From assembly GCF_004348525.1 (NCBI RefSeq), contig NZ_SMKG01000001.1, positions 124,001-188,000 on the forward strand: 64,000 nucleotides of DNA, read 5' to 3'. Below, piece by piece: positions 8,121 to 46,147 of this stretch. The notes under the pieces were generated by a model. The model did no database searches. It was given only the letters and a program-made list of their open reading frames with translations, and was not told where the DNA came from. The translations under genes and the position numbers were made by a program. Within the stretch, counting starts at the first letter, position 1; every line of letters begins with the position of its first letter. Source of the DNA: Micromonospora sp. 15K316. Its GTDB lineage: Bacteria > Actinomycetota > Actinomycetes > Mycobacteriales > Micromonosporaceae.

Positions 8121-9367
8121 TCAGCGGGCCGACCCGGCCCGGCGCTTGTTGTACACGTCGAAGGCGACGGCGACGAGCAGGACGAGCCCCTTCACCACCG
8201 ACTGCGTCGACTGGTCGACGCCCATCAGCTGCATCCCGTTGCTCATCACGGCCATGATCAGACCGCCGACCATGGCGCCGACGACGGTGCCCACGCCACC
8301 GGTGACCGCCGCGCCGCCGATGAACGCCGCGGCGATCGCGTCGAGCTCGAACATGTTGCCCGCCGCCGGCTGGGCCCCGTTGGAGCGGGAGGAGTAGATG
8401 ACTCCGGCCACCGCCGCGAGAAAGCCCATGTTGACGAACATCCAGAAGTTGACGGTGCGGACCTTCACCCCGGACAACGTCGCGGCCGAGAGGTTGCCGC
8501 CGATCGCGTAGACCCGCCGGCCGAAGACCGTACGCCGGGTGACCAGGCCGTAGACGAGCACGAGGACGGCGAGGATGATCAGTACGATCGGCAGTCCCCG
8601 CGCGTGGGCCAGCTGCCAGGCGAAGTACATGATGACCGCGCCGACCAGCAGCACGCGGGCCACGAAGAGCGGGAACGACTCGACCGGCTGCTGGTAGCGG
8701 ATCCGGGCGAGCCGGGTCCGGAAGACGCTGACCGCGTAGCCCGCCACCGCCACCGCCCCGATGAGCAGTGTGAAGGCGTCGTAACCCTGCCCGCCGATGA
8801 GCCCGTTGAGGAAGCCGGCCGCGACGCGCTGGTACTCGGACGGGAACGGCGACAGCGAGATGTTGTCGAGCACCCGCAGGGTGAGCCCACGGAACAGGAG
8901 CATGCCGGCGAGGGTCACGATGAACGCCGGGATCCCCGCGTAGGCCACCCAGAACCCGTGCCAGGCGCCGACCGCGATGCCGACGGCGAGCGCGGCCAGG
9001 ATGCCGATCCACCACGGCTGTCCCTGCCGGATGACGAGGACGGCGGAGACCGCGCCGGTGAGCGCGACCACCGATCCCACCGACAGGTCGATGTGGCCAC
9101 CGATGATCACGATGACCATGCCGATCGCGAGCACCAGGATGTACGAGTACTGCAGGACGATGTTGGTGATGTTGCCGGGGCTCAGCGAGACGCCGTCGGT
9201 GAGGACCGCGAAGAGGGCGACGATCACCACGAGCGCGACGTAGATCCCGCTCTGGCGAAGGTTGCCCAGGATCAGTGTCCGCGGATCGCTGGTGCCGGTG
9301 TGCAGCGCGGCGGCGGGGGTGTCGTCGGACGATGGGCGCTGCGGGGTCGCCGACGGTTTGGTGGTGG

Positions 9368-9371
<4 letters not shown>
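8121..9371 (-). CDS. mmsB: Monosaccharide ABC importer, permease
   Basis: A 416-residue integral membrane protein of the ribose/xylose/galactose (CUT2) permease family. It has about ten hydrophobic segments, the family signature [16 protein letters not shown] after the second/third span, and the cytoplasmic coupling region [20 protein letters not shown]. The long form with an extra cytoplasmic insertion around residues 235-265 matches MmsB/GguB/XylH-type permeases. It would form the membrane channel with MmsA and receive sugar from ChvE. Its ATG overlaps the mmsA stop by 4 nt (ATGA), so the two are translationally coupled. Sugar specificity (arabinose, galactose, xylose or glucose) cannot be read from sequence. 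Confidence 0.92.
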
Positions 9372-10906
<1,535 letters not shown>

Positions 10907-11033
10907 GGTCACCGTCCTGGTCGTACCCGTCGTGAACGAAACCCTGGTCGATCGGGACCGCCGTGCCGGCCGTGTCCCGGTCCGCACCTGCCGCCACGAC
11001 GGACCGCGAGCGGAGGGACGAAGGTTCAGGGAT

Positions 11034-11071
11034 TCCGTCGGGCCCGGCGCGATGCAGCCGGACCCGACGGA
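11034..11071 (-). terminator. Intercistronic stem-loop after chvE
   Basis: Fifteen-base arms (TCCGTCGGGCCCGGC and GCCGGACCCGACGGA) pair with one mismatch that can form G-U, around an 8-nt loop. It begins 4 nt past the chvE stop and lies upstream of mmsA. This position suits a partial terminator or mRNA-stabilising element that raises binding-protein levels over the ATPase and permease. Confidence 0.6.
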
Positions 11072-11075
11072 GGTG

Positions 11076-12218
11076 TCAGCCCTTGGCCTGGCCGCTGGCG
11101 ACCTCTTCGGCCGTCCAGTAGCCGGAGTCGACGAGGACGGGCTTGATGTCGTCCTTGTAGACGGTCTGGACCGGAAGGAGGTTCGACGGGACGACCTTGA
11201 CGCCGTTGTCGTACGTCTTGGTGTCGTTCGCCTGCGGCTCCTTCTCCTGCAGGAAGGCCTCGGCCGCGACGACGGCCTGCTCGGCCAGCAGACGGGTGTC
11301 CTTGAAGATGGTCGAGTTCTGGACGCCGTCGTTGATGAGCTTGACCGATGCGATCTCCGCGTCCTGGCCGGTCACCACGGGCATCTTGACGCCCGAGCCG
11401 CCGTAGCCGGCGTTCTGCAGGGCGGTGATGATGCCCCGGGACAGGCCGTCGTAGGGCGACAGCACGCCCTGGACCCGGGTGCCGTCGTTGTAGCTCGACG
11501 TGAGCAGGTCCTCCATGCGCTTCTGCGCGGTCTCCTGCTGCCAGCGGAGGATCGCCACCTGCTCGATGGCGGTCTGACCCGACTTGACCCGAAGCGACTT
11601 GTCGTCGATGAACGGCTTGAGCGTGTCCATGGCGCCGTCGAAGAAGAAGTGCGCGTTGTTGTCGTCGAGCGAGCCGGCGAAGAGCTCGACGTTGAACGGC
11701 CCCTTCGCGGTGCCCTTCGAGCCGTCCTTGTTCTGCAGGCCGAGGCCGACGAGCAGCGCGGTGGCCTGCGCGACGCCGACCTTGTAGTTGTCGAAGCTGA
11801 CGTAGAAGTTCACGTTCGGGCTGTCGCGGATCAGCCGGTCGTAGGCGATGACCGGGATCTTCGCGTCCGCCGCCGCCTGCAACTGGCTACTGAGAGCGGT
11901 GCCGTCGATCGCCGCGATGACCAGGACGTCAGCGCCCTGGGTGATCATCTGGTCGACCTGCTGCGACTGGGTCGGGATGTCGTCTCCCGCGTACTGGAGA
12001 TCGACCTTGTAGCCCTTGGCCTCCAGCTTCTCCTTGACCGAGTTGCCGTCGGCGATCCACCGCTCCGACGTCTGGGTCGGCATGGCGACGCCGATGGTCA
12101 GGTCGGCCGGCTTGTCGCCGCTGGTGTCGCCGCCACCTCCGGCTCCTTCGCCGCCGCAGGCCGTGAGGCCCAACGCCAACACCGTCGCACCGAGAACGGC
12201 TAGAAATCGTTTACTCAC
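11076..12218 (-). CDS. chvE: Monosaccharide-binding lipoprotein
   Basis: A 380-residue periplasmic-binding-type lipoprotein: signal [17 protein letters not shown] with lipobox LTAC (Cys21), a Gly/Asp linker, then the type 1 binding fold starting [16 protein letters not shown]. The conserved sugar-binding motifs [20 protein letters not shown] and [15 protein letters not shown] are typical of ChvE/XylF/GguE proteins. It would capture an aldose outside the membrane for MmsA-MmsB. The start is GTG 12218 with a GGAGAGGAG-like site upstream. A -35/-10 promoter overlapped by a LacI-type operator lies 53-79 nt before the start, implying repression lifted by sugar. No LacI-family gene is in the window. 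Confidence 0.92.
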
Positions 12219-12445: not shown

Positions 12446-13972
12446 TCAGGTCGTCGGGACGCCGTCGACCAGGCGGGGCAGGCGCAGCGGGTTGGCCTCC
12501 CGCAGCTCCGGCGGGAGCAGCGGGTCCGGAACGTTCTGGTAGCAGACCGGGCGCAGCCACCGCTCGATCGCGGTGCTCCCCACCGAGGTCGAGCCACTCG
12601 TAGCGGCCGGGTACGGTCCGCCGTGCTGCATGGCGGGAGCGACAGTCACCCCGGTCGGCCACCCGTCCACCACGACACGTCCCGCGATCTCACCCAGCGC
12701 CGCGACGAGGTCCGCCGCCGCCTCGTCACGCTCGTCGACGCCGAGCTGCACAGTGGCCGTGAGGTTGCCCGGCAGGGCGTCGAGCAGCGCGTCCCGCTCG
12801 GCCGTCGAGCCGTAGCGCACCAGCACGGTGACCGGACCGAAGCACTCCTCCAGCAGCTGCTCGTACGGCCCGCCCTCGGCCAGCAGTGCCGCCCCGACGG
12901 AGAGCACACCGGGACGTACGGCCAACGGCGTGTCGCCGTCGCCGGCCTCGCCCGCCGCGAGCGGTTCCGCCACCCCCGGCAGCGCCGCGCGGGCGCGGAC
13001 CCCGGCGAGGAACGCCTCCCGCATCCGCGGATCGAGCAACGGACCGGACGGAACCGTCGCCGACGCCGTCGCCCGGGCGACGGCGTCGCCCGCCGCACCC
13101 TCCGGGAGCAGCACGAGGCCGGGCTTGACGCAGAACTGGCCCATTCCCAGGGTGTACGAGGCGGCGAGTCCCGCCCCGATCTCCTCCGCCCGGGTCTCGG
13201 CCGCCCGCTCGGTCACCACCACCGGGTTGAGACTGCCCAGCTCGCCGTGGAACGGGATCGGCCGGGGACGGGCCGACGCGATGTCGAAGAGCGCGCGGCC
13301 GCCACGGACCGAGCCGGTGAATCCCACCGCCGCGGTCAACGGGTGTCGGACGAGCTCCGGGCCCGCGTCGAAGCCGTGGACCAGGCCGACGACGTCCTCG
13401 GGCAGCCCGGCCTCGGCCGCCGCCGCCCGGAGGATCCGGGCACACAGGACGGAGGTGGCGGGATGGTCCGGGTGGGCCTTCACCACCACCGGGCAGCCGG
13501 CGGCCAGGGCGCTGGCGGTGTCACCGCCCGGCACGCTGAAGGCCAGCGGGAAGTTGCTCGCCGCGAAGACCGCGACCACCCCGAGCGGCACCTTGTAGCG
13601 CCGCAGATCGGGGCGGGGTGCGGGCGCCGCCGCCGGGTCGGCGTGGTCGATGATCACATCCAGGTACGTGCCGGCGTCGACCACGTCGGCGAACGCGCGC
13701 AGCTGGTAGCAGGTGCGGGCCAGCTCGCCGGTGAGCCGCACCCGGCCGAGCGCCGACTCCGCCTCCGCGGTCGCGACGATCTCCTCGCCGCTCTTCTCCA
13801 GCAGCGCGGCGGCGGTGCGAAGAAGGTCCGCACGCCGGACCGGGTCCCGCAGCGCGGCTCCGGCGGCTGCTGCGGCGCGTACCGCCCGGTCCACCTCCTG
13901 CGGCGTCGACTCGGTCGCGACGCGTTCCCGCGGCCGGCCGGTACGCGGGTCGCGGCTCAGCACGTCAGTCAC
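12446..13972 (-). CDS. 2,5-dioxovalerate (KGSA) dehydrogenase
   Basis: A 508-residue aldehyde dehydrogenase. The catalytic Cys lies in LGMGQFCVKPGL, the general-base Glu in PFHGELGSLNP, and the NADP-binding turn in GFTGSVRGGRALF; the FCVKPG form is that of alpha-ketoglutarate semialdehyde dehydrogenases (AraE/LhpG type) rather than general ALDHs. It would oxidise 2,5-dioxopentanoate to 2-oxoglutarate, the last step of hydroxyproline breakdown. It is the final gene of the operon. Two starts compete: ATG 13990 and GTG 13972. GTG is chosen because AAGGAGG sits 8 nt upstream; it overlaps the previous gene by 8 nt. The nearby sugar importer could also feed this enzyme through pentose oxidation. 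Confidence 0.88.
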   Translation of the reverse strand: MTDVLSRDPRTGRPRERVATESTPQEVDRAVRAAAAAGAALRDPVRRADLLRTAAALLEKSGEEIVATAEAESALGRVRLTGELARTCYQLRAFADVVDAGTYLDVIIDHADPAAAPAPRPDLRRYKVPLGVVAVFAASNFPLAFSVPGGDTASALAAGCPVVVKAHPDHPATSVLCARILRAAAAEAGLPEDVVGLVHGFDAGPELVRHPLTAAVGFTGSVRGGRALFDIASARPRPIPFHGELGSLNPVVVTERAAETRAEEIGAGLAASYTLGMGQFCVKPGLVLLPEGAAGDAVARATASATVPSGPLLDPRMREAFLAGVRARAALPGVAEPLAAGEAGDGDTPLAVRPGVLSVGAALLAEGGPYEQLLEECFGPVTVLVRYGSTAERDALLDALPGNLTATVQLGVDERDEAAADLVAALGEIAGRVVVDGWPTGVTVAPAMQHGGPYPAATSGSTSVGSTAIERWLRPVCYQNVPDPLLPPELREANPLRLPRLVDGVPTT

Positions 13973-15458
13973 CGTTTCGTCCTCCTTCATCCATCGCCTC
14001 GAGCGGTGTGGTCTCCTCGGCCAGTGCGGCGAGCTCGCCCAGGGGCACCGGCACGGCGAGGCTGCGGCCGGCCAGCGGACGCAGGTCGTCCACGCCGGTC
14101 TCACGTCCGCCCAGCCAGGCGGCGATGCCCGCGGTGGCGAGGCCGCACACCCGTCCCTGGCACCAGCCCATCCCCGGTCGCGCCAGCAGCTTCAGCGTGC
14201 GCGCGTCCTCCGCGCCGAGCTCGTGGTGGGCCCGGCGCAGGTCGGCGTAGGGGACCTCCTCGCAGCGGCAGACGAGCGTCGTCTCCGTCAGCCACTCGGG
14301 CCAGGCGCGGGGCAACGGGTAGGTCCGGTGCATGGCCGTGGCGAAGCGGCGGGCCCGCCGGACGGCACCGCGCAGGCGCCTGACCCGGGTCGGGTCGGCC
14401 GGCAGGCCCCGGTCGCCGGCGAGCGCGAGCGCGCTGAGGCGTCCCTCCGTCACGGCCAGCGTCGCACCGCCGACACCGGTGGCCTCACCGGCGACGTAGA
14501 GCCCGTCGACGCTGCTGCGCTGGAGCTCGTCGACGGTCACCACGAGCGAACCGTCGGTGTCCTTCGCCGTCTCGGCGCCGAGCATGAGGGGCAGTTCGAG
14601 CGAGGGCGTGAAGCCCCAGCCGAACGCCACGAAGTCGACGGTGATCTCCTCGTCCGGTCCGGTCGGGCGGCCGTCGCCGTCCACCCGGGCGACGCGGACC
14701 GCGTCGACCCGGCCGTCCCCGAGCACCTCGCGGATCACGGTCCTCGTCCGGTACGGGATGCGGTGCCGGGCCATCGACGCCGCGTAGCGCAGGGCCTCGA
14801 CGCCCTTGCCCGGGGCGGAGACGGCGCCCGCCGGGGAACGCAACCAACCGACTGTCGCGTTGGCCTCGATCACGGCCGCGACCCTCACCCCCGCCCGCGC
14901 GAGGCCGGTCGCCACGGGCAGCAGGAACGGGCCGGTGCCGGCGACGACCGCCCGCCGTCCCGCCGAGGTGCGGTGTCCCTTGAGCAGAGCCTGCGCGCCG
15001 CCCGCGGTCAACACGCCGGGCAGGTCCCAACCGGGCACGGGCAGCTGCCGGTCGTACCCGCCCGGGCAGAGGATCAGCGCGTGCGCGGTGAGCGTCTCCC
15101 CGGAGGCTCCGCCGGCAGCGGTCGACGTGGACGTGGTGGCGGTGACCCGGAGGGTGAAGGCGGCCTCGGAGTCGCGGGTGATGAGCCAGACCTGGTGTCC
15201 GGGGAGGTACCGGATCCGACCTTCGGCCTGCAGCTCGTCGAGGCGGGTGCGCAGCCGGGTGAAGACCGGCCAGTCGTGGTGGCCGATCCGGTCCTCGGGG
15301 CGGGCGTGGGTCCGGTCGTAGTGTCGCCAGTACTGCCCGCCGGGCTGCCCGGCGGTGTCGATCAGCAGGACGTCGAGTCCCGCCTCGGCGGCTTCGACCG
15401 CGGCGGCGAGTCCGGCCGGGCCGGCGCCCACCACTGCCACGTCAGGCACGTGCGGCAT
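13965..15458 (-). CDS. D-hydroxyproline dehydrogenase, FAD/Fe-S subunit (LhpE/HcnB-like)
   Basis: A 497-residue flavoprotein. Residues 7-25 hold the dinucleotide fold VVGAGPAGLAAA, a second nucleotide fold starts at AVVAGTGPFLLP, and the C-terminal part has a BFD-like [2Fe-2S] motif: CRCEE and, 34 residues later, GWCQGRVCG. This is the layout of HcnB and of the LhpE subunit of the heteromeric cis-4-hydroxy-D-proline dehydrogenase. With the small Fe-S protein at 15442 and the DadA-like oxidase at 15741 it would oxidise D-Hyp to 1-pyrroline-4-hydroxy-2-carboxylate and pass electrons onward. ATG 15458 overlaps the previous gene by 17 nt. Related complexes use octopine or opines; the neighbours favour hydroxyproline. 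Confidence 0.88.
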   Translation of the reverse strand: MPHVPDVAVVGAGPAGLAAAVEAAEAGLDVLLIDTAGQPGGQYWRHYDRTHARPEDRIGHHDWPVFTRLRTRLDELQAEGRIRYLPGHQVWLITRDSEAAFTLRVTATTSTSTAAGGASGETLTAHALILCPGGYDRQLPVPGWDLPGVLTAGGAQALLKGHRTSAGRRAVVAGTGPFLLPVATGLARAGVRVAAVIEANATVGWLRSPAGAVSAPGKGVEALRYAASMARHRIPYRTRTVIREVLGDGRVDAVRVARVDGDGRPTGPDEEITVDFVAFGWGFTPSLELPLMLGAETAKDTDGSLVVTVDELQRSSVDGLYVAGEATGVGGATLAVTEGRLSALALAGDRGLPADPTRVRRLRGAVRRARRFATAMHRTYPLPRAWPEWLTETTLVCRCEEVPYADLRRAHHELGAEDARTLKLLARPGMGWCQGRVCGLATAGIAAWLGGRETGVDDLRPLAGRSLAVPVPLGELAALAEETTPLEAMDEGGRNGD

Positions 15459-15744
15459 CCTCGCCTCCCGTCCGTCCGGCGTCGGCGAGGTCCGCGCCCG
15501 GTTCGGCGTCGCCGAGGCGCATGCCGTCGGCGGCGGCGACGAGGCAGGCCCGCTGGTCGGGGAGCCCGTCGACGGTGATCAGGCAGTCGAAGCAGACGCC
15601 GATCCCGCAGAACAGTCCCCGGGGCCGGCCGCCCCTGCGGGTGGTACGCCAGTCCGTGATTCCGGCGGCGATCAGGGCGGCGGCGACGCTCTGGCCGGGC
15701 TCGGCCGGGATGGTGGCGCCGCGGAAGGTCAGCTGGTGGGTCAT
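15442..15744 (-). CDS. D-hydroxyproline dehydrogenase, small [2Fe-2S] subunit (LhpF/HcnA-like)
   Basis: A 100-residue ferredoxin-like protein. The cysteine pattern GLFCGIGVCFDC ... QRAC is that of HcnA/SoxA-delta-like subunits, which carry a plant-type [2Fe-2S] cluster and transfer electrons within three-subunit amine dehydrogenases. ATG at 15744 overlaps the stop of the preceding DadA-like gene by 4 nt, and its end overlaps the HcnB-like gene, so all three subunits are coupled. The length is normal for the family. Confidence 0.9.
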   Translation of the reverse strand: MTHQLTFRGATIPAEPGQSVAAALIAAGITDWRTTRRGGRPRGLFCGIGVCFDCLITVDGLPDQRACLVAAADGMRLGDAEPGADLADAGRTGGEDAARA

Positions 15745-16898
15745 CGGGTTCCCTCCTCGGCCGGCGGGAAGCGGTCCGGGGCGAACGGGCTGAGGTTCAG
15801 GTCGGTCGGCCGTCCCACGAGGGCCTGGCTGATCAGCTTCCCGGTGCCGGCGGAGAGCCCGATGCCCGCGCCCTCGTGGCCGCAGGCGTGCCAGAGGCCG
15901 GGCGCGCGGGGGTCCGGACCGATGACCGGCAGGTGATCCGGGCAGTACGGGCGGAAGCCGAGGTAGGTGCGGATGGCGCGAACTCCCCGGAGCATCGGGA
16001 AGAGCGCTATCGCCTTCGCCGCGAGCGTGCCGATGGCGGCGACGGAGACGGTCCGGTCGAAGCCGACGCGCTCCCGGGACGCGCCGATGAGGACGGTGCC
16101 GCCGGCGGTGCCCTCGACCACGGGTGAGGTCTGCAGCGCCGCGTCGGAGCTGGCCACGTCACCGACGTACTCGGCGGCGTAGACCTTGTGCCGGATCGTG
16201 CGGGTCGGCATCGGCTGGGTGACGAGGATGAAGCCGCGCCGGGGCAGCACGGGCACCCGCACCCCGGCCAGGTCGGCGATGCCGCCGGCCCAGGTGCCGG
16301 CGGCGTTGAGCACCGCGCCGGCGGCGACGTCACCGGACGAGGTGCGCACGCCGGTCACCCGGTCACCGGCGCGTAGGAAGCCGGTCACCTCGGTTCGGGT
16401 ACGCACCTGCGCGCCGCCGGCCCGGGCGAGCCGCAGTAGGTGAGCCGCGACCAGCATCGGCTGGACCTGTGCGTCCTGCGAGTAGAAGGCGCCCCCGGCG
16501 AGCTGCGGGGCGAGGTGGGGCTCGTAGTCGGGCAGCTCGTCCCGGGCGACGTCGCGGACCTCGATGCCGGCGCGACGCTGCCGCACGGCGAGGGCGCGCA
16601 GCGACGCCACGCCCTGCGCCGAGGACGCGACGACGAGCCCGCCCTTGGACTCGAACTCCCAGAGGTCGCCGTGTTCGGCGAGGTCTTCCCGCCAGACCCG
16701 CTGCGAGTAGCGGGCCAGGTCGAGTTCGGGTCCGGCCTCCTTGTCGGAGACCAGCACGTTGCCCTCGCCGGCGCTCGAGGTGCCGCCGGCGATCGCACCG
16801 CGTTCGACGACGACCACCCGCAGCCCGGCCATCGTCGCGAAGTACGCGCTGGCCGCGCCGACCACACCCGCCCCGACGACCACCAGGTCCACGCTCAC
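15741..16898 (-). CDS. D-hydroxyproline dehydrogenase, catalytic FAD subunit (LhpB/DadA-like)
   Basis: A 385-residue DAO-family flavoprotein with the N-terminal FAD fold VVVGAGVVGAASAYFATMAG and the C-terminal FAD contact HACGHEGAGIGLSAGTGKL. It matches HcnC/DadA/glycine-oxidase-like enzymes and, given its partners, is the catalytic subunit that removes hydride from cis-4-hydroxy-D-proline. The start is GTG 16898, overlapping the GntR stop by 4 nt. Sarcosine, proline or opine oxidation are alternatives for the family, but the epimerase and deaminase genes beside it make D-Hyp the best guess. Confidence 0.88.
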   Translation of the reverse strand: MSVDLVVVGAGVVGAASAYFATMAGLRVVVVERGAIAGGTSSAGEGNVLVSDKEAGPELDLARYSQRVWREDLAEHGDLWEFESKGGLVVASSAQGVASLRALAVRQRRAGIEVRDVARDELPDYEPHLAPQLAGGAFYSQDAQVQPMLVAAHLLRLARAGGAQVRTRTEVTGFLRAGDRVTGVRTSSGDVAAGAVLNAAGTWAGGIADLAGVRVPVLPRRGFILVTQPMPTRTIRHKVYAAEYVGDVASSDAALQTSPVVEGTAGGTVLIGASRERVGFDRTVSVAAIGTLAAKAIALFPMLRGVRAIRTYLGFRPYCPDHLPVIGPDPRAPGLWHACGHEGAGIGLSAGTGKLISQALVGRPTDLNLSPFAPDRFPPAEEGTR

Positions 16899-17578
16899 GG
16901 CGCGTCCTCGACGCCGCCGGCCCAGAGGCCTCGTACGTGGCCGATGTGGCGGTGCATGAGCAGTTCGGCGCCGGCCGGGTCACGGGCTTCGACGAGGTCC
17001 AGCAGCTCGTGGTGTTCGGCGGCGGAGCGGCCCAGCCGTCCGCTCTCGAGCAGCGGGGTCAGACCGAGCAGCCGGGTCCGGGACCGCAGGTCGGAGACGA
17101 CGTCGACCAGGAAGCGGTTCCCGCTGTAGCCGAGCAGGGTCAGGTGGAAGACGTGGTCGGCCTCGATGTAGCCGACCAGGTCGCCGCACTCCACCGCGTC
17201 GACGATCGCCTGCGCGAGGGCCCGCAGCTGCGGGAAGTCCGCCGCGGGGACGACGGGAACGACGTCGCGCACGGTCGGCGGCTCGATGAGCCTCCGGACG
17301 GCGGCGAGATCGTCGAGGTCCTGCTCGGACATCTCGGTGATCCGGAACCCCTTGTTGGCGTGCGTGACGACCAGGCCCGCCTTCACCAGGTCGAGCATGG
17401 CCTCCCGCACCGGGGTGGGCGAGACGCCGAGCTGCGCGCCCAGTGCCGGGGCCGAGTAGACGACGCCGGGCTCCAGCTTGCCGGAGATGATCGCCGCGCG
17501 GAGGGCCTTCCCGATCCGGTCGCGGAGGTTCTCCCTGGGGCCGATGTCGGGCAGGTCCGGCACGGGCGTCGGGCTCAC
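16895..17578 (-). CDS. GntR/FCD-family transcriptional regulator
   Basis: A 227-residue regulator: an N-terminal winged helix (NLRDRIGKALRAAIISGKL and LGVSPTPVREAMLDLVKAGL, about 20-80) and a C-terminal all-helical FCD ligand domain with metal-binding His candidates in DHVFHLTL, EHHELL and MHRHIGHV. FCD regulators bind carboxylates or amino acids, so control of the surrounding hydroxyproline operon is likely. The GTG start at 17578 shares GTGA with the epimerase stop; an upstream ATG-like start would overlap the epimerase by more than 60 nt. Being inside the operon it is probably autoregulated. Confidence 0.9.
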   Translation of the reverse strand: MSPTPVPDLPDIGPRENLRDRIGKALRAAIISGKLEPGVVYSAPALGAQLGVSPTPVREAMLDLVKAGLVVTHANKGFRITEMSEQDLDDLAAVRRLIEPPTVRDVVPVVPAADFPQLRALAQAIVDAVECGDLVGYIEADHVFHLTLLGYSGNRFLVDVVSDLRSRTRLLGLTPLLESGRLGRSAAEHHELLDLVEARDPAGAELLMHRHIGHVRGLWAGGVEDAP

Positions 17579-18576
17579 AGCAGGAACCCCGCCGGGAACG
17601 GGTCGGTGGGGTCGAGGTGCAGCTGCGACGTCGCGGTGATCCACGCCCGGCCGGTGATCGAGGGCAGCACCGCGGGGAGCGACCCGACAGTGGTGTCGCC
17701 GAGCAGCCGCCCGGTGAACCGGGTGCCGATGAACGACTCGTTGACGAAGTCGTCACCGACGGCCAGCTCTCCCCGGGCGTGCAGCTGCGCCATCCGGGCG
17801 CTGGTGCCGGTGCCGCAGGGCGACCTGTCGAACCAGCCGGGGTGGATGGCCATGGCGTGCCGCGACAGCCTCGCGGTCGAGCCGGGAGCCTTCAGGTAGA
17901 CGTGGTGGCAGCCGTTGATGTCGTCGCGCTCGGGGTGGACCGGCCGGTCGTGCTCGTTGACCGCCTCCATGATCGCCAGACCGGCGGCGAGCAGGTCGTC
18001 GCCGCGTGAGCGCTCGAACGGCAGGCCCAGCTCCGCCAGGTCGACGATGGCGTAGAAGTTCCCGCCGAAGGCCATGTCGTACTCGACCGTGCCGAAGCCC
18101 GGGACCTCGACCTTGCGGTCCAGCGCGTAGGCGAACGACGGGACGTTCTGGATGGTGACCGACTCCGCCGCGCCGTTGCGTACCGCCACGGACGCGACGA
18201 CCAGCCCGGCCGGCGTGTCGAGCCGGATCGTGGTCACCGGCTCGACGACGGGCACCATCCCGGTCTCGACGAGGACTGTCGCCACGCCGATCGTGCCGTG
18301 CCCGCACATCGGCAGCAGGCCGGAGACCTCGATGAAGAGCACACCGTAGTCGGCGTCGGGGCGGGTCGGCGGCTGCAGGATCGCACCGCTCATCGCGGCG
18401 TGGCCACGGGGCTCGTACATCAGCAACGTACGGATGTCGTCGCTGTTCTCCATGAACCACAGCCGCCGCTCGGCCATCGTCGCGCCCGGGATGGTGCCCA
18501 TGCCACCGACGACGACCCGGGTGGGCATGCCCTCGGTGTGCGAGTCGACGGCGTGGAAGGTACGGCGGGACCTCAC
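17575..18576 (-). CDS. lhpA: 4-hydroxyproline 2-epimerase
   Basis: A 333-residue proline-racemase-family enzyme. The two catalytic cysteines are visible: Cys91 in LPMCGHGTIG and Cys254 in DRSPCGTGTSA, so it is an epimerase/racemase and not a Cys-to-Thr/Ser 3-hydroxyproline dehydratase. The DSHTEG N-terminal motif is also present. It converts trans-4-hydroxy-L-proline to cis-4-hydroxy-D-proline, the substrate of the dehydrogenase encoded downstream. The GTG start at 18576 overlaps the deaminase stop by 4 nt. The 4-hydroxyproline role is inferred from the family pattern plus complete pathway context. Confidence 0.9.
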   Translation of the reverse strand: MRSRRTFHAVDSHTEGMPTRVVVGGMGTIPGATMAERRLWFMENSDDIRTLLMYEPRGHAAMSGAILQPPTRPDADYGVLFIEVSGLLPMCGHGTIGVATVLVETGMVPVVEPVTTIRLDTPAGLVVASVAVRNGAAESVTIQNVPSFAYALDRKVEVPGFGTVEYDMAFGGNFYAIVDLAELGLPFERSRGDDLLAAGLAIMEAVNEHDRPVHPERDDINGCHHVYLKAPGSTARLSRHAMAIHPGWFDRSPCGTGTSARMAQLHARGELAVGDDFVNESFIGTRFTGRLLGDTTVGSLPAVLPSITGRAWITATSQLHLDPTDPFPAGFLL

Positions 18577-19478
18577 TTGTAGCCCTTGCCGAGAACGGCC
18601 TCGGTGTCGGCGGTGATCCGGGCGGCCACCTCGGCCGGCAGCGCCAGGCGCGGCGGCCGGCAGGCGCCGCCCTTGCGGCCGGCGATGTCCATCGACAGCT
18701 TGATCGACTGGACGAACTCGGTCTTCGAGTCCCAGCGCAGCAGCGGATGCAGGTCCCGGTAGATGGGCAGCGCCTTGGCGATGTCGGCGGCGTCGCCCGA
18801 GGTGACCAGCCGGTAGAGCTCCACGGTGCTCTCCGGGATGGCGTTCGGGTAGCCGGCGATCCAGCCGACGGCACCGGCGACGCCCAGTTCGAGCAGCACG
18901 TCGTCCGCGCCGACCAGCAGATCCAGGCCGGGCGCGAGCTCGGCGATCTCGTACGCCCGGCGGACGTCGCCGGTGAACTCCTTCACCCCGACGATCAGGC
19001 CCTCGTGGAACAGCTCGGCGAGCAGCGCGGGGGTCAGGTCCACCTTGGTGTCGATCGGGTTGTTGTAGGCGACGACCGGCAGCCCGGCGCGGGCCACCTC
19101 CCGGTAGTGCTCGACGACCGCCTGGTGGTCGGCGCGGTACGCGTTCGGAGGCAGCAGCAGTACGGAGGTGGCGCCGGCCGCGGCGGCCTGCTCGGCCCAG
19201 CGGCGGGCCTCGAGCGCGCCGTACGCGGCGACGCCGGGCATGACGCCGAATCCGGCGGGGGCGGCCTGGACGGCCGTCTCGACGACCCGTTCCCGCTCCT
19301 GCGGGGTCAGCGTCTGGTACTCGCCGAGCGATCCGTTGGGGGTCACGCCGTCGCAGCCGCCGTCGGCGAGGAAGCGGACGTGTTCGGCGTAGGCGTCGTA
19401 GTCGACGGAGAGGTCGTCGTGCAGGGGCAGCGCCGTCGCGACGTGTACGCCGCGCCACGGCTTGGCAGGGGTGGTCAT
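18573..19478 (-). CDS. lhpC: 1-pyrroline-4-hydroxy-2-carboxylate deaminase
   Basis: A 301-residue dihydrodipicolinate-synthase/N-acetylneuraminate-lyase-family barrel. The Schiff-base Lys is in LIVGVKEFTGD and the catalytic Tyr in PVVAYNNPI; GVTPNGSLGEY replaces the usual GTTGE motif. In hydroxyproline clusters this family member removes ammonia and ring-opens the pyrroline to 2-oxoglutarate semialdehyde. The context (epimerase, dehydrogenase, KGSA dehydrogenase) identifies the step. ATG 19478 has GAGGAG 7 nt upstream; the frame continues upstream but without homology. Confidence 0.88.
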   Translation of the reverse strand: MTTPAKPWRGVHVATALPLHDDLSVDYDAYAEHVRFLADGGCDGVTPNGSLGEYQTLTPQERERVVETAVQAAPAGFGVMPGVAAYGALEARRWAEQAAAAGATSVLLLPPNAYRADHQAVVEHYREVARAGLPVVAYNNPIDTKVDLTPALLAELFHEGLIVGVKEFTGDVRRAYEIAELAPGLDLLVGADDVLLELGVAGAVGWIAGYPNAIPESTVELYRLVTSGDAADIAKALPIYRDLHPLLRWDSKTEFVQSIKLSMDIAGRKGGACRPPRLALPAEVAARITADTEAVLGKGYK

Positions 19479-19525
19479 GGTGTTTCTCCTCGGCGTCGTA
19501 GGGGGAACGCGTGGTGGTCGGGGTG

Positions 19526-20854
19526 TCACGAGGTCTGGGCGGCGGCCATCCACTTCTCCAGGCCGTCGACGTCCAGCGGGAGCGCGCGGGACAGCACCTC
19601 GGAGCCGTCCGGGGTGACCAGGATGTCGTCCTCGATGCGGACGCCGATGCCGCGCAGCTCCGGGGGCACGGTCAGGTCGTGGGCGTGGAAGTAGAGGCCG
19701 GGCTCGACGGTGAGCACCATGCCGGGCGCCATCACCGCGTCCTGGTACGCCTCCCTGGACGCCTGGGTGCAGTCGTGCACGTCCAGCCCGAGGTGGTGGC
19801 CGATGCCGCAGACCAGGTAGCGCCGGTGGTGCTGCCCGGTATCGGAGAGCGCCTCGTCCACGGAGACGGGCAGCAGTCCCCAGTCGTCCAGCCCGTGGGC
19901 GATCACCTCCATCGCCGCGTGGTGGAACTCGGTGAAGCGGCGGCCCGTGCCGACCGCCGCGAGCCCGGCCCGGTGGGCACGTTCCACGAGGTCGTGCACC
20001 TGCCGTTGGGCCTGTGAGAACCGTCCGGCGGCGGGGAAGGTGCGGGTGACGTCGGCGGTGTAGTAGCTCCTCACCTCGACGCCCATGTCGAGCAGGAGCA
20101 GCTCGTCGGGGCGTACCGGGCCGTCGCAGCGCACCCAGTGCAGCGTGGGCGCGTGCCGTCCGCTGCCGACGATGGTGGCGTAGCCGGGGCCGTTGCCGTA
20201 CGCCCGGGCGTACCGGTCGAAGGTGCCCTGCAGCCACCGCTCCCCCGGCCCCTCGATCGCGGTGGGGAATTCGCGGACGACCGCGGCGAAGCCCTCGACC
20301 GTGCGGTCCACCGCCTCCCGGAGCTGGCCGATCTCCCAGTCGTCCTTGTACATGCGCAGCTCGGCGAGGGTGCGGGCGACCTCCTCGTCGCGGGTCACGT
20401 CCTCGGTGAGTTCGGCGAGCGGTCGGACGTCGACGCCCAGGGCTCGCGCCCAGTCGTCCAGGCTGGGGGCCGCGCCCACCCACAGCTCCCCGTAGCGGGC
20501 GTCGGAGAAGAAGCCCGGGTCGCCGGGGTAGGCCGGTGGTGGGAGGTAGAGGGTGGGGTGGCCGTCGCGGAGCACCACCGTGGCGTTCTCCACGGCGCAG
20601 CCGGTGGTCCAGAAGAAGTCGCTGTCCGGTCGGAAGTCGTACGCGGTGTCGTTGCTGCGTACCGGCGCCTCCCCGGCGGTCAGCACGATGGTCCGGCCGG
20701 GCAGGGCCTCGGCGAGCCGGGCCCGGTGGGCGGCGGCGGCCTCGGCGGCGCCGGCGACGACCGGTGGGGTCCGGTCGGGTACGTCCCACCCCGTCGCCAT
20801 GTACTGCGTGAATGCCGGGATCTCGGACAGCTTCGGCGGTCTACCGGTGCGCAT
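19526..20854 (-). CDS. M24B Xaa-Pro aminopeptidase
   Basis: A 442-residue creatinase-fold metallopeptidase. The five metal ligands of M24B enzymes are seen in order: LLLDMGVE and YTADVTRTFP (two Asp), GIGHHLGLDVHD (His), VLTVEPGLYF (Glu) and RIEDDILVT (Glu). The N-terminal half is the creatinase/aminopeptidase-P N domain (RPDSDFFWTTG, ENATVVL). It would cleave the first residue from Xaa-Pro or Xaa-Hyp peptides in the cytoplasm (no signal). ATG 20854 has AAGGAG 6 nt upstream and overlaps the previous gene by 14 nt. Its place ahead of the hydroxyproline genes suggests it supplies them. Confidence 0.9.
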   Translation of the reverse strand: MRTGRPPKLSEIPAFTQYMATGWDVPDRTPPVVAGAAEAAAAHRARLAEALPGRTIVLTAGEAPVRSNDTAYDFRPDSDFFWTTGCAVENATVVLRDGHPTLYLPPPAYPGDPGFFSDARYGELWVGAAPSLDDWARALGVDVRPLAELTEDVTRDEEVARTLAELRMYKDDWEIGQLREAVDRTVEGFAAVVREFPTAIEGPGERWLQGTFDRYARAYGNGPGYATIVGSGRHAPTLHWVRCDGPVRPDELLLLDMGVEVRSYYTADVTRTFPAAGRFSQAQRQVHDLVERAHRAGLAAVGTGRRFTEFHHAAMEVIAHGLDDWGLLPVSVDEALSDTGQHHRRYLVCGIGHHLGLDVHDCTQASREAYQDAVMAPGMVLTVEPGLYFHAHDLTVPPELRGIGVRIEDDILVTPDGSEVLSRALPLDVDGLEKWMAAAQTS

Positions 20855-22196
20855 CGCAAGCTCCTTCCTGCCGGGTGTCGCTCTTGGTGCTGGCGGGTTC
20901 CCGCTGGTCGGTGATCCCGCCGCCGGTCTCGCGGACCAGCTGGGCCAGCCGGGCGAAGACCCGCTCGTCCTCGCGGACACCGTCGTGTTCGTACTCGTTG
21001 GTGATCCACGTCCGGACGTTGCCGACCCGGGACGCGGTGTCGAGTTGCAGGCCGGCGTCGACGTACATGTCGTCGTAGTAGACGGCGGCGGCCACCGGGA
21101 CCTCGTTGGCCGCCAGCCGGTCCGGGTCGTAGAGCGGCGGCCACTGCTCCCGGGTGGCCAGCAGCTCGACGGCATCGCGGAACGGACGCAGCTCGGCGAT
21201 CTCCTCGAACATCCAGGGGTAGATCATCTCGCCGGTGAAGAGCAGCGGCCTGGCCTCCTCGGCGAACTGCGGATGCCTGTCGTGCTCGGCCTGGGCCGCC
21301 CACCCGGTGGCGCCGGCCCCGTGGGCGTAGATGCTCTCGTGCAGGGCCGCGAAGAGCGGATTGTCGGCGTACGACGTGCGGGTCAGCACCTCGTGCAGGA
21401 ACGTGGTCGACAGCTCGTCGGCGGAGAACGCCTCGTCGAGCAGCCAGTGCAGGCGCTCGGGTCCGGGCTTCATGCCGAGGTCCAGGCCGAGCGTCTGGAA
21501 CCGGCGGACGGTGAGCAGGTCCCCGTCGGGCAGCCGGACGTCCCCCTCGGCCAGCCGGTCGGCGATCCGGGCCACCTGCGCCACCTGGTGCGGGTAGCGC
21601 TGGTAGAACTGCCGGTTCTTGCCCTCGACGCGGGGGTAGGTGCGCCGGTAGACCTCCGCCGCCGACGGGTCGAGGCCGGGCAGACCGCCGGTGACGTAGC
21701 AGGCGTGCAGGCCTTCCGGGGCGTTCGACAGGTAGGTCAGGGTGAGGAAGCCGCCGTACGACTGCCCGAGGGTGGACCAGCGTTCGCCGCCGAAGACGGT
21801 CTTCCGCAGGTGTTCGTGGTCCGCCACGATCGAGTCGGCGCGGAAGCAGGCGAGGTGGGCGGCCGCCTGCTCGGCGCTCGGGAAGGCGCTCATCCGGCGG
21901 CCGTCGACGCGGGTGCTGCGGCCGGTGCCGCGCTGGTCGACGAGGACGACGCGGTGCTCGCGCAGCGCCCGGTCGAGCCACCCGGACCGGCTGAGCGGGC
22001 GGGGGCCCTTTCCGCCGGGCCCGCCCTGCAGGTAGACCAGGCACGGCAGCTCCTCGCCGTCGCGTACCGGGTCGACGATCTCCCGGGCGAAGAGCTGGAT
22101 GGTGCCGCGCGCCGGATCGGACCAGTCCAGCGGCACGTCCTCGACGTGGTCCCGGACGCGCAGGCCGGGAATCGTGTAGGTGGCGGTGACGGTCAT
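20841..22196 (-). CDS. S33 prolyl aminopeptidase (proline iminopeptidase)
   Basis: A 451-residue alpha/beta hydrolase of the prolyl-aminopeptidase type. It shows the oxyanion motif LQGGPGGKG, the VLVDQRGTGRS loop, the Ser elbow LGQSYGGFL and a late His in EYEHDGV. These enzymes free N-terminal proline (often hydroxyproline) from short peptides. No signal peptide, so it acts inside the cell. It is the first gene of the operon and sits behind a -35/-10 promoter and a leader of about 145 nt. A weak AGAGAGAAG site precedes ATG 22196. Confidence 0.9.
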   Translation of the reverse strand: MTVTATYTIPGLRVRDHVEDVPLDWSDPARGTIQLFAREIVDPVRDGEELPCLVYLQGGPGGKGPRPLSRSGWLDRALREHRVVLVDQRGTGRSTRVDGRRMSAFPSAEQAAAHLACFRADSIVADHEHLRKTVFGGERWSTLGQSYGGFLTLTYLSNAPEGLHACYVTGGLPGLDPSAAEVYRRTYPRVEGKNRQFYQRYPHQVAQVARIADRLAEGDVRLPDGDLLTVRRFQTLGLDLGMKPGPERLHWLLDEAFSADELSTTFLHEVLTRTSYADNPLFAALHESIYAHGAGATGWAAQAEHDRHPQFAEEARPLLFTGEMIYPWMFEEIAELRPFRDAVELLATREQWPPLYDPDRLAANEVPVAAAVYYDDMYVDAGLQLDTASRVGNVRTWITNEYEHDGVREDERVFARLAQLVRETGGGITDQREPASTKSDTRQEGACDAHR

Positions 22197-22349
22197 CGGC
22201 TTCTCTCTTTCGCGGTGCCGGTCGACCGTGGACGGGGCTCGACCAGCCGTCTCCCACCTCGTACGGCACCTCGCCGACCTGGGGGCACCGGCCCTGGGTG
22301 AGCCGCCGCGAGGCCAACGAACCTCGCAGTAGGGTGTGCCATTGCACTG

Positions 22350-22378
22350 ACCCTAATGTGAAAGCGAGTGCGTGCCAA
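22350..22378 (-). promoter_or_regulatory. Promoter of the hydroxyproline operon
   Basis: On the minus strand TTGGCA (22373-22378) and TAGGGT (22350-22355) are separated by exactly 17 bp. The predicted start of transcription is about 145 nt before the first start codon, leaving a long GC-rich leader. Confidence 0.5.
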
Positions 22379-22469: not shown

Positions 22470-24275
22470 TCAGTGGCGCGGCCAGCGGCCGACGACAGCT
22501 GCGGCGCCGCCGCCGCGGCGGACCGGCTCGGCCGCGGCGACCATCCGTCCGTTCCGCAGGAATTCGATTCCGGTCGCGGCGCCGATCTCGGCGGTCGAGG
22601 AGAACGCATGCCCCGGCGGCAGACTGCCGGCGTAGGCGGTGATGAACGCCGGCTCGGCCTGGGTGCTGGCGCCGTTGCGCTGCGACGCCCGCGGCGCGGC
22701 CAGCGCCTGCGGCAGGGTCATGCCCAGGTCGATCCGGTTGACCAGCATCTGCAGGACGGTGGTGATGATCGTCGCGCCGCCGGGGGTGCCGACGGCGAGG
22801 AAGGGCCGCCCGTCGGCCAACACGATGGTGGGCGCCATCGAACTGCGCGGTCGCTTGCCCGGCGCCGGCAGGTTCGGGTCGGGAGCGCTGCCCTGGGTCG
22901 GCGCGAAGTTGAAGTCGGTGAGCTCGTTGTTGAGCAGGAAACCTCGACCGGGTACGACCATCCCGTTGCCGCCGGTCGCCTCGATGGTCAGCGTGTACTC
23001 GACGACGTTGCCCCACCGGTCGGCCACCGTGAGGTTCGTGGTGGACTTGCGGTCGTCGCGGGTGTCGGCGGCCGTCGCGGTCGCGCAACCGCCGTAGACG
23101 CCGTCGGGAACACCGGGCGCGACCGGCTTGGGTAGCGTCGCCGCGGCGTCGATCCGGCAGGCCCGCTCCTTGGCGTACCCGTCCCGGAGCAGCTCACGCA
23201 GGACGCTCTGCCGGGTGTGGTCGCCGACGTAACGGTTACGGTCGGCGAACGCGAGCGCGCTGGCCTCCAGGTAGTGGTGCATCGCCTGGGCCACCGACAT
23301 CGACCGCAGGTCGTAGCGCTCCAGGATGTTGAGCGCCTCCCCCACCGCGACGCCGCCGCTGGAGGGGGTGGACATGCCGTACACCTCGAGCCCGCGGTAC
23401 TCCGACCGGGTCGGCGCGGGGAAGCGGGTGCGGTAGCCGGCGAGGTCGGACGTGGTCAGCTCGGCCGGACGGATCGGATACGGCCACGAACCGACCGGCC
23501 GCGCCGCGAGCGGCGGGTGCTGCACTGTGGCCGCCACGTCGCGCCCGACCTCGCCCCGGTAGAAGACGTCGGTGCCGCGCTTGGCGATCAGCCGGTACGT
23601 GTCGGCCAGGTCCCGGTTGCGGAAGGTGCTGCCGACCGCCGGCGGCTGCCCGCCCGGCAGGTAGAGCGCGCTGGTGGAGCTGAACTGGCCGAACGCGGCC
23701 CGGTTCGCCGCGATCTGGCCGGCGAAGGTCTCGTCGACGGTGAAGCCCTTCTCGGCCACCCGCGCGGCCGGGGTGAGCAGCTGGGCCAGTGACCGGGTGC
23801 CCCAGCGGGCGAGCGCGTCGCGCCAGGTGAGCAGGGTGCCGGGAACGCCGACGGAGAGGCCGCTGATCCGGGCCTCGTCGAAGGCGTACGGCTGCCCGGT
23901 GGCCGGGTTGGTGAAGCTGCCGGCGGTCATCGAGGCCGGCGCCGCCTCGCGGCCGTCGATGGTGTGTACCCGTCCGGTCCTGGCGTCGTAGTAGACGAAG
24001 AAGCCGCCGCCACCGACGCCGGCGGAGAAGGGCTCGGTGACGCCGAGCGTCGCCGCGGCCGCGACCGCCGCGTCGACCGCGTTGCCGCCACGTCGTAGCA
24101 CGTCCAGTCCGACGGCGGTCGCCGTCTCGTCGACCGTGGAGACCGCGCCGCCGTAACCGATCGCCACCGGCTCCTTCGGTGGCCCGGCCGGCTTCGCCGC
24201 CTGGGCGGGGACTGTGGTTCCGGCCGCCAGCGCGGCCAGGGCGATGGTCGCGGTGAACAGGACCCGAGGTCTCAT
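22470..24275 (-). CDS. ggt: Secreted gamma-glutamyltransferase
   Basis: A 601-residue exported Ntn hydrolase. The signal is MRPRVLFTATIALAALAAG, cleaved near AQA. The self-cleavage/catalytic Thr is Thr412 in STTNLTVAD, giving a large N-terminal and small C-terminal subunit. The RGGNAVDAAVAAAATLG motif, the substrate-binding GREAAPAS and the GTPGGATIITTVLQ loop are also family hallmarks. It would hydrolyse or transfer gamma-glutamyl groups (glutathione, gamma-glutamyl peptides) outside the cell. Its ATG overlaps the CHAT-gene stop by 4 nt, so it is the last gene of that operon. That coupling to a CHAT protein is unusual. Confidence 0.92.
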   Translation of the reverse strand: MRPRVLFTATIALAALAAGTTVPAQAAKPAGPPKEPVAIGYGGAVSTVDETATAVGLDVLRRGGNAVDAAVAAAATLGVTEPFSAGVGGGGFFVYYDARTGRVHTIDGREAAPASMTAGSFTNPATGQPYAFDEARISGLSVGVPGTLLTWRDALARWGTRSLAQLLTPAARVAEKGFTVDETFAGQIAANRAAFGQFSSTSALYLPGGQPPAVGSTFRNRDLADTYRLIAKRGTDVFYRGEVGRDVAATVQHPPLAARPVGSWPYPIRPAELTTSDLAGYRTRFPAPTRSEYRGLEVYGMSTPSSGGVAVGEALNILERYDLRSMSVAQAMHHYLEASALAFADRNRYVGDHTRQSVLRELLRDGYAKERACRIDAAATLPKPVAPGVPDGVYGGCATATAADTRDDRKSTTNLTVADRWGNVVEYTLTIEATGGNGMVVPGRGFLLNNELTDFNFAPTQGSAPDPNLPAPGKRPRSSMAPTIVLADGRPFLAVGTPGGATIITTVLQMLVNRIDLGMTLPQALAAPRASQRNGASTQAEPAFITAYAGSLPPGHAFSSTAEIGAATGIEFLRNGRMVAAAEPVRRGGGAAAVVGRWPRH

Positions 24276-39003: not shown

Positions 39004-39347
39004 CAGATCACCTCTCAGGTCGGGGGTTGGAGAAGGCGGGGCGATCGAAGGCCGATGAGGCTCACCGTCCACATGATCACTCCAGATTCCGAATCTAGGA
39101 GTCGGCCTGCCCGCGGTCACTGTGCAGATGTCGGCAGGTGGGCCGGGTCCGGTTCCGACACATGCAGGAGAGGAGCGCGTGCCCTTCCCGTCGTCAGCCG
39201 GGATCGGTCGTCCGCGGCGTCGAGTCGCCTCTTGCCGATGGCCCGCGCCGGGCGTAGGAAGAACACCACGTCGCACCCGGTCCGCGCCCGTCTCCGGTTC
39301 TCCCACCGGGTGTCCGTCCACCGAGTCCACCGTCGAAGGAGATGCGT
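39004..39347. other. Divergent intergenic region
   Basis: These 344 bp separate two divergent secreted-protein genes. The only palindrome noticed is AGATTC-C-GAATCT at 39084-39096. No clear -35/-10 pair or short gene was seen. Confidence 0.4.
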
Positions 39348-45790: not shown

Positions 45791-46147
45791 CTGACATCCC
45801 TTCACGTTGAACGACGAAAAAGGGACCGAGAGGGCGGCCGCGCCAGATCGGACTCGGTCGATTCAACAGGTTTCGATGAGTTTCGGGAACGCCGGCGGCC
45901 GCAATTGAGGAAATCTTGAGGCTTCATCGTGGTCGCGCGACGAGGCCGCGCGGCCCGCACACACGGCGGTCGGTGGCGGCGCAGATTCGTAGGCGACGAA
46001 TTCGCCAACGGCACCCGGGAGCGGCCGATCCACTCGACACGTGTGGACACGGCATCCGGTTCACCGGCGAGAACAAGCCCATAAAGCCGGACATGGAGAG
46101 CTCGTCACCCTGTCGGACGGCCACGGCACTGTGTTTCCATCTCTCCC
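45791..46147. other. Regulatory intergenic region
   Basis: No gene is visible in these 357 bp. The region contains the leader of the M14 peptidase gene, the direct repeat at 45903-45921, and the upstream flank of the broken membrane-protein gene. Confidence 0.5.
45903..45921 (-). promoter_or_regulatory. 11-bp direct repeat upstream of the M14 gene
   Basis: AATTGAGGAAATCTTGAGG contains TTGAG twice, 11 bp apart. A near copy lies upstream of the amidase operon at 49075. The 11-bp period is that of OmpR/PhoB-type response-regulator boxes. Confidence 0.45.

Follow-up and report, generated by a model that had tools for sequence, protein, structure and literature searches.

RESULTS

A predicted hydroxyproline operon headed by two candidate exopeptidases

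We analyzed a 64,000-nucleotide stretch of Micromonospora sp. 15K316 (contig NZ_SMKG01000001.1, positions 124,001 to 188,000; hereafter the window), and in it a predicted operon at positions 12446–22196 that is, by sequence, a HypR-type catabolic set of seven genes for hydroxyproline (Hyp), headed by genes for a prolyl-aminopeptidase-like hydrolase (PIP) and an Xaa-Pro aminopeptidase (XPP). We consider it likely that this is a Hyp-inducible operon which would carry Pro- and Hyp-containing peptides to 2-oxoglutarate. All nine open reading frames (ORFs) lie on the minus strand, and seven of the eight junctions overlap, by 14, 4, 4, 4, 4, 17, and 26 (or 8) bp in operon order, and the only gap, of 47 bp, separates XPP from the deaminase gene. 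A first-pass annotation, made from the sequence alone, had described this same layout, and our ORF coordinates agree with it. Start codons were picked by Shine–Dalgarno-like sequence and homology. Each of the nine proteins has a Pfam match above the curated cut-off. Among the NCBIfam matches listed, none of the nine reaches its curated cut-off, so the names used here rest on fold, residues, and context.

The PIP gene (22196–20841) encodes a 451-aa S33-type alpha/beta hydrolase (PF00561, Abhydrolase_1) with Ser146 in GQSYGG and His404 in NEYEHDG. The protein is far from the short proline iminopeptidases, and its nearest structure is PDB 8jgn, the Arabidopsis protein At3g61540 (378 bits). XPP (20854–19526; 442 aa) is an M24 enzyme made of an AMP_N domain (PF05195) and an M24 domain (PF00557), which scores 182 bits against aminopeptidase P 5wze and 205 bits against NCBIfam PRK10879, whose cut-off of 465 is not reached. 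All five metal-ligand positions, by the ligand list of Escherichia coli aminopeptidase P, are present (D256, D268, H354, E384, and E408). Apart from the operon, the genome has another XPP paralogue, of ~51% identity, which makes the copy in the operon look like a dedicated one. A second PIP relative of ~50% identity was also seen (L254, G000:C80, ~4.4–5.2 kb), its match being split over two frames, and it has perhaps decayed.

The Hyp set opens with a candidate pyrroline-4-hydroxy-2-carboxylate deaminase (19478–18573; 301 aa; DapA superfamily, PF00701, DHDPS), which carries Tyr138 and Lys166 and whose structure matches are confined to the DapA superfamily. Next come a predicted 4-hydroxyproline 2-epimerase (18576–17575; GTG start; 333 aa; PF05544, Pro_racemase, 439 bits) and a HypR-like, FadR-type GntR/FCD regulator (17578–16895; GTG start; 227 aa; PF00392 and PF07729). 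The epimerase had been credited with both catalytic cysteines, and we found them at C91 and C254. It was aligned by phmmer to 6j7c, which we take to be TlProR, the published spacing fitting. In this alignment, S63 and H225 stand at positions where HypE differs from proline racemase, the separating sites being those of the PMC4364671 excerpt. The Cys–Cys pair and the HypE-type pocket residues recurred in 164/164 epimerase homologues, which had been chosen by similarity to this epimerase. The genome contains a second proline-racemase-family gene (L252, G000:C310:8501-28500, at 9501–10511) with Cys at both catalytic sites, whose best NCBIfam model, below cut-off, is trans-3-Hyp dehydratase. That gene adjoins a GntR gene and branched-chain-type ABC genes, and an ornithine-cyclodeaminase-family gene lies ~6.5 kb off.

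A putative three-subunit D-hydroxyproline dehydrogenase and a candidate 2-oxoglutarate-semialdehyde dehydrogenase, an aldehyde dehydrogenase (ALDH), complete the operon, so that the dehydrogenase, DapA-type deaminase, and semialdehyde dehydrogenase genes are encoded together. The FAD (beta/DAO) subunit (16898–15741; GTG start; 385 aa; PF01266, DAO, 241 bits) matches glycine/sarcosine oxidase-type structures. The 2Fe-2S (gamma) subunit (15744–15442; 100 aa; PF13510, Fer2_4) has its cysteines at positions 46, 51, 54, and 67, and the alpha subunit (15458–13965; 497 aa; PF07992, Pyr_redox_2, with PF04324 below cut-off) has a BFD-like cysteine cluster at its C-terminus. The ALDH (from 13990 with ATG or 13972 with GTG to 12446; 514 or 508 aa; PF00171, Aldedh) carries Cys287 and Glu250, and its nearest structures are the NADP+ aldehyde dehydrogenases 1eyy (394 bits) and 3v4c (357 bits).

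This Hyp core is already known. Streptomyces coelicolor has a homologous core operon, SCO6289–SCO6293, with the regulator HypR, which represses it together with the M9 collagenase gene SCO5912, and without its epimerase gene the organism no longer grows on L-Hyp (PMC6608401, in excerpt). Homologous operons are Hyp-induced, according to the excerpts of PMC6608401 and PMC4113996, and Streptomyces lividans grows on trans-4-Hyp (PMC4113996). The S. coelicolor operon and the growth of S. lividans mean that the core is not new. As described in the PMC6608401 excerpt, the S. coelicolor HypR regulon SCO6289–SCO6294 has the same six proteins as the window (three-subunit dehydrogenase, deaminase, epimerase, and GntR/FCD regulator) and an operator closely related to the one predicted in the window. 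Its gene order differs, however, its operon is without exopeptidase or ALDH, a candidate for the latter (SCO1871) being encoded at an unlinked place, and the regulon includes an unlinked M9 collagenase. The 4HypE pathways of Zhao et al. 2014 (PMC4113996, excerpt) likewise have an epimerase, DAAO, DHDPS, and ALDH neighborhood. Families, active-site residues, and the experimental work on the S. coelicolor operon (PMC6608401; also PMC4113996) give good support to the route from trans-4-Hyp to 2-oxoglutarate under GntR control that the first-pass annotation had proposed.

Linkage of PIP and XPP to Hyp genes in relatives

Relatives were sampled in two ways. From a scan of named genomes, the best 80 of at least 590 epimerase loci were kept, making 84 loci with four from plasmid records. 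A class survey gave 63 genomes with an epimerase besides our own, 53 of which were fetched as stretches. An epimerase was present in 28/151 same-genus genomes (own included) and 64/246 class genomes, a minority which marks the operon as accessory. PIP was found in 6 and XPP in 21 of the 84 loci, and in 1 and 5, respectively, of the 53 stretches. Among 27 same-genus loci, eight sister operons carry PIP and/or XPP, and 7 of the 19 others hold a more distant XPP.

The identical nine-gene order was observed in Nonomuraea rhodomycinica (L007), at 68–90% identity, and in six of the eight same-genus loci with an epimerase of ≥90% identity (L162–L166 and L168). Among these eight, L167 gave no PIP match, L169 gave no XPP match above the coverage limit, and the L163 PIP has one in-frame stop. 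Recurrence of this order in Nonomuraea and in same-genus loci argues that the arrangement is not due to chance. The PIP–XPP pair also recurs beside Hyp genes in Nonomuraea, Microbacterium (L015, L018), Arthrobacter (L004), and genomes G213, G131, and G094, and in Nonomuraea, L015, G213, G131, and G094 it directly follows an oligopeptide-type ABC importer made of a binding protein, a permease, and two ATPase genes (Pfam on examples).

In a midpoint-rooted PIP tree, from which eight rows with an in-frame stop or short match were left out, operon-type PIPs formed a 17-row clade with support 100/99, two tree rows (L120 and L229) being the same gene. Sixteen of the 17 rows had XPP, importer, or Hyp genes linked to them. 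The exception, L121 of genome G204, had no linked genes in its stretch (L244). Conversely, a PIP outside the clade, that of L023, does have a linked Hyp operon. Three PIPs lie 20–25 kb from an epimerase and were not scored as linked. The Nonomuraea PIP nests among same-genus PIPs, which suggests transfer.

A conserved HypR-like site in front of the peptidases

Upstream of PIP we noticed promoter-like hexamers on the minus strand (22350–22378), TTGGCA (22378–22373) and TAGGGT (22355–22350) separated by a 17-bp spacer, which show consensus resemblance only and align with those of the eight sister operons. A predicted HypR-like operator, GTGCAATGGCAC (22336–22347, minus strand), immediately follows the −10-like hexamer, at a distance of 139 bp from PIP. 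The published HypR operator motif is CTNTGC(A/C)ATGTCAC (PMC6608401, excerpt). The best match of the window, CAGTGCAATGGCAC, agrees with it at 12/14 positions (22336–22349) and is the sole two-mismatch match in the 64 kb. The site was kept in 8/8 sister operons, exactly in seven and with one change in L167, and each time a TAGG(G/A)T- or TAAGAT-like hexamer immediately precedes it, its distance from the start codon varying from 46 to 139 bp. Because a conserved HypR-like site lies between the −10-like hexamer and PIP, the Hyp regulon probably includes the two peptidases. Together with the recurrent linkage above, this supports the earlier proposal that the exopeptidases are part of the operon.

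We then looked at 179 loci with Hyp genes or PIP. They held 185 HypR-like sites. Of these, 161 lay in the 320 bp preceding the start of a gene that was scored (Hyp, peptidase, glycosidase, collagenase, or peptide-importer genes), zones that make up 8.9% of the bases. A reversed-motif control gave four sites, two of them near scored starts. Genes preceded by such sites included XPP, the SBP_bac_5 importer, M9 collagenase, and PF07944 genes, and in Streptomyces loci the sites front XPP, SBP_bac_5, and M9 genes. The site pattern was chosen with the published motif, a few loci, and the promoter of the window's genus already in view, which means that loci of that genus are not independent of it; in addition, the 179 loci share ancestry and some genomes are present twice (e.g., L086 and L218). 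As related loci shaped the pattern, the enrichment is a description and not an independent test.

In its own genome, the operator of the PIP promoter is the only exact copy. A scan with the 12-mer yielded this one and six one-mismatch places versus 18 strand hits for a backward control, and the degenerate palindrome GTGNMATKNCAC yielded three places versus five for its control. The other two GTGNMATKNCAC places were within a predicted ORF and, as a different palindrome, between ORFs, one of which encodes a response regulator. A wider HypR regulon in this genome was not shown by these two scans, the TACAATGTCAC form not having been searched genome-wide.

Arabinofuranosidases and collagenases beside related operons

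In Nonomuraea, G213, G131, and G094 (Pfam for three of the four), the importer is immediately preceded by a gene of the PF07944 beta-L-arabinofuranosidase family, so that both share one locus there, as they do in L015. In two Microbacterium loci, a PF07944 gene sits between XPP and the deaminase gene. The Nonomuraea PF07944 promoter has two HypR-like sites, one an exact copy of that of the window. Those of G131 and G213 also carry such sites, and that of G094 has two copies of a one-off variant which the pattern did not count. Pairs within 10 kb numbered 3 for PIP and PF07944 (0.30 expected, among the at least 150 places listed) and 8 for epimerase and PF07944 (0.31 expected, among the places listed), the latter all in another, single genus. 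Just downstream of the Hyp regulator, a PF07944-type gene was seen by tblastn in L086, L196, L198, L202, L206, L207, L209, L218, L219, and L221; in Jiangella (L086), the protein starts, by eye, with an apparent twin-arginine-like signal. Beside the window's operon, a PF07944 gene and oligopeptide importer are absent. Its genome has three PF07944 genes, the nearest ~52 kb from the operon and the others on other contigs, and none of the three fetched stretches around them held a HypR-like site.

Streptomyces Hyp operons and some other Hyp operons of the window's genus carry an M9 collagenase instead. M9 was detected by tblastn in 11 of the 84 plasmid and genome loci, and in the class survey 7 of 13 M9 genes lay within 10 kb of an epimerase versus 0.03 expected, all in one genus. 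The Streptomyces loci L013, L029, L051, L062, L072, L075, and L082 have the gene directly upstream of the Hyp dehydrogenase genes. In the same-genus genome G307, an M9 collagenase with PKD and PPC domains, confirmed by Pfam (L173, 17277–19847), adjoins a different Hyp operon, the XPP of which is ~45% identical, and tblastn matches were also noted in L177, L181, L187, and L188. An M9 metallopeptidase also lies ~4 kb past the Hyp dehydrogenase cluster of Arthrobacter sp. Rue61a plasmid p232 (L006, 17149–18999), which is typed as conjugative. In the window's genome and within the fetched stretches of the eight sister operons, we found no M9 collagenase.

Neighboring genes

The operon is adjoined by genes for a ChvE-GguA-GguB multiple-monosaccharide ABC transporter (8121–12218, minus strand), all three above NCBIfam cut-offs, which also follows ALDH in three of the eight sister operons (L162, L163, and L168) and possibly has an accessory role. 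On the upstream side (22470–27172), a gamma-glutamyltransferase and a CHAT-domain protein are kept in L162 and L163 and unmatched in the other six sisters. The window further contains M6-type (36940–39330) and M14-type (43202–45805) peptidase genes, which may be peptide producers.

DISCUSSION

According to our preferred reading, the GntR/FCD gene product, HypR, would occupy the site after the −10 hexamer and be released as a Hyp metabolite builds up. PIP would then take off N-terminal Pro or Hyp, and XPP the residue preceding Pro or Hyp. Released trans-4-Hyp would be epimerized and oxidized by the three-subunit dehydrogenase, and the product deaminated by the DapA-type enzyme and oxidized by ALDH. 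We infer that the genes are co-transcribed, that repression occurs and is relieved, and that PIP and XPP are specific for Hyp peptides; so, too, with the substrate polymer, since importer and arabinofuranosidase are unlinked to the operon in its own genome.

Several observations weigh against this reading. The epimerase comes to a near tie, at 359.6 bits on the NCBIfam 4-hydroxyproline epimerase model NF010578 (cut-off 376) and 360.7 on the proline racemase model (cut-off 556), and its specificity site 5 is Ile244, neither the Cys/Tyr of HypE nor the Phe of ProR. PIP scored 34 of the 259.75 bits and 29.3 of the 167.65 bits needed for the proline iminopeptidase models TIGR01249 and TIGR01250, which is why we call it PIP-like and do not assign it to that equivalog. 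Its nearest solved relative is a plant protein, At3g61540, for which a literature search found no described function. PIP is missing from most Hyp loci. The window's operon has no linked peptide importer, the best match to the Nonomuraea binding protein being one of 36% on another contig. Finally, matches to the HypR motif with up to three mismatches numbered 10 in the window versus 25 expected by chance; with weaker matches below chance, the PIP-promoter site matters through its conservation.

The near tie and Ile244 could point to a pathway for another substrate, through proline racemization or with 3-Hyp or 4-Hyp betaine. We regard this as very improbable, since Ser63 and His225 are as in HypE (PMC4364671, excerpt), the deaminase and ALDH suit 4-Hyp only, and homologous operons respond to Hyp. 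It is easier to imagine, though still unlikely, that this is an ordinary free-Hyp operon into which two general Pro-peptide turnover genes were swept: both peptidase families are general, and most Hyp loci work without them. Such an accident squares poorly with recurrence of the pair in several genera, the conserved promoter, the tight overlap, and the separate XPP paralogue.

If peptides are indeed the substrate, their source may be plant Hyp-rich glycoproteins of the extensin type, a narrower form of the peptide reading with the window as a shortened locus, to which we give slightly less than an even chance. Glycopeptides would be imported, PF07944 would strip beta-arabinose, and PIP, XPP, and the Hyp enzymes would follow. 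The placement of PF07944 before importers or inside Microbacterium loci, the HypR-like sites at its promoters, its pairing with PIP and epimerase above expectation, the ChvE-GguAB sugar importer after the operon, and a genome with three PF07944 genes and no M9 speak for it. Yet the own PF07944 genes are distant and site-less, the family spans enzymes with other pectin-type substrates, and in Arthrobacter (L004) the plasmid record that was searched has PIP–XPP but no PF07944. Collagen, as a source for the window's operon, strikes us as improbable. M9 genes do cluster near epimerases, one adjoins an XPP-containing Hyp operon in the same genus, and HypR controls SCO5912 (PMC6608401, excerpt); but the own genome and the sister stretches have no M9, other collagenolytic proteases not having been searched for. 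The first-pass annotation had named collagen- or extensin-like peptides: its collagen half gained no direct support in this genome, and its extensin half gained indirect support, from PF07944 and importer genes in relatives only. In relatives, that combination suggests that Hyp-O-arabinosylated glycopeptides of plants are used. As to the window's own lineage, we lean toward plant material, given that M9 is absent and that the promoter is shared with the Nonomuraea arabinofuranosidase, its unlinked and site-less PF07944 genes running counter to this leaning. Both polymers, plant and collagen, appear to be served by related loci.

Beyond the operon, we tentatively propose, at rather less than even confidence, that the HypR of Actinomycetota governs a whole Hyp-polymer regulon made of free-Hyp catabolism, an oligopeptide importer, PIP–XPP, and one depolymerase, lineages swapping arabinofuranosidase (plant) for M9 (collagen) or the reverse. 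The window form would have kept PIP–XPP and the promoter and dropped arabinofuranosidase and importer. A known parallel is Bifidobacterium, in which the GH127 enzyme HypBA1 takes part in the utilization of Hyp-linked arabino-oligosaccharides (PMC7263609, excerpt). The HypBA1/HypBA2/HypAA system of Bifidobacterium longum joins a GH127 beta-L-arabinofuranosidase to an ABC importer, as in the window's relatives, and is directed at Hyp-rich glycoproteins; however, what is taken up and used in that system is the sugar, with no attached Hyp catabolism or peptidase in the excerpt of PMC7263609. The excerpt of PMC4113996 gives peptidase families for a Bacilli t3HypD-type cluster, and no actinobacterial PIP–XPP or arabinofuranosidase. 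In titles and abstract openings, our literature search found no description of a Hyp operon together with PIP/XPP or arabinofuranosidase. As far as these searches show, a putatively HypR-controlled peptidase head, to which relatives add peptide import and polymer-specific depolymerases, is new.

Soils contain much Hyp, in the form of plant extensin and animal collagen, yet descriptions of how bacteria release it from such polymers are scarce. If import, exopeptidases, and arabinofuranosidase do share the HypR operator, the regulon would predict which polymer a strain eats. It would also offer a testable route for the use of Hyp-arabinosides, with PIP and XPP as possible Hyp-releasing enzymes.

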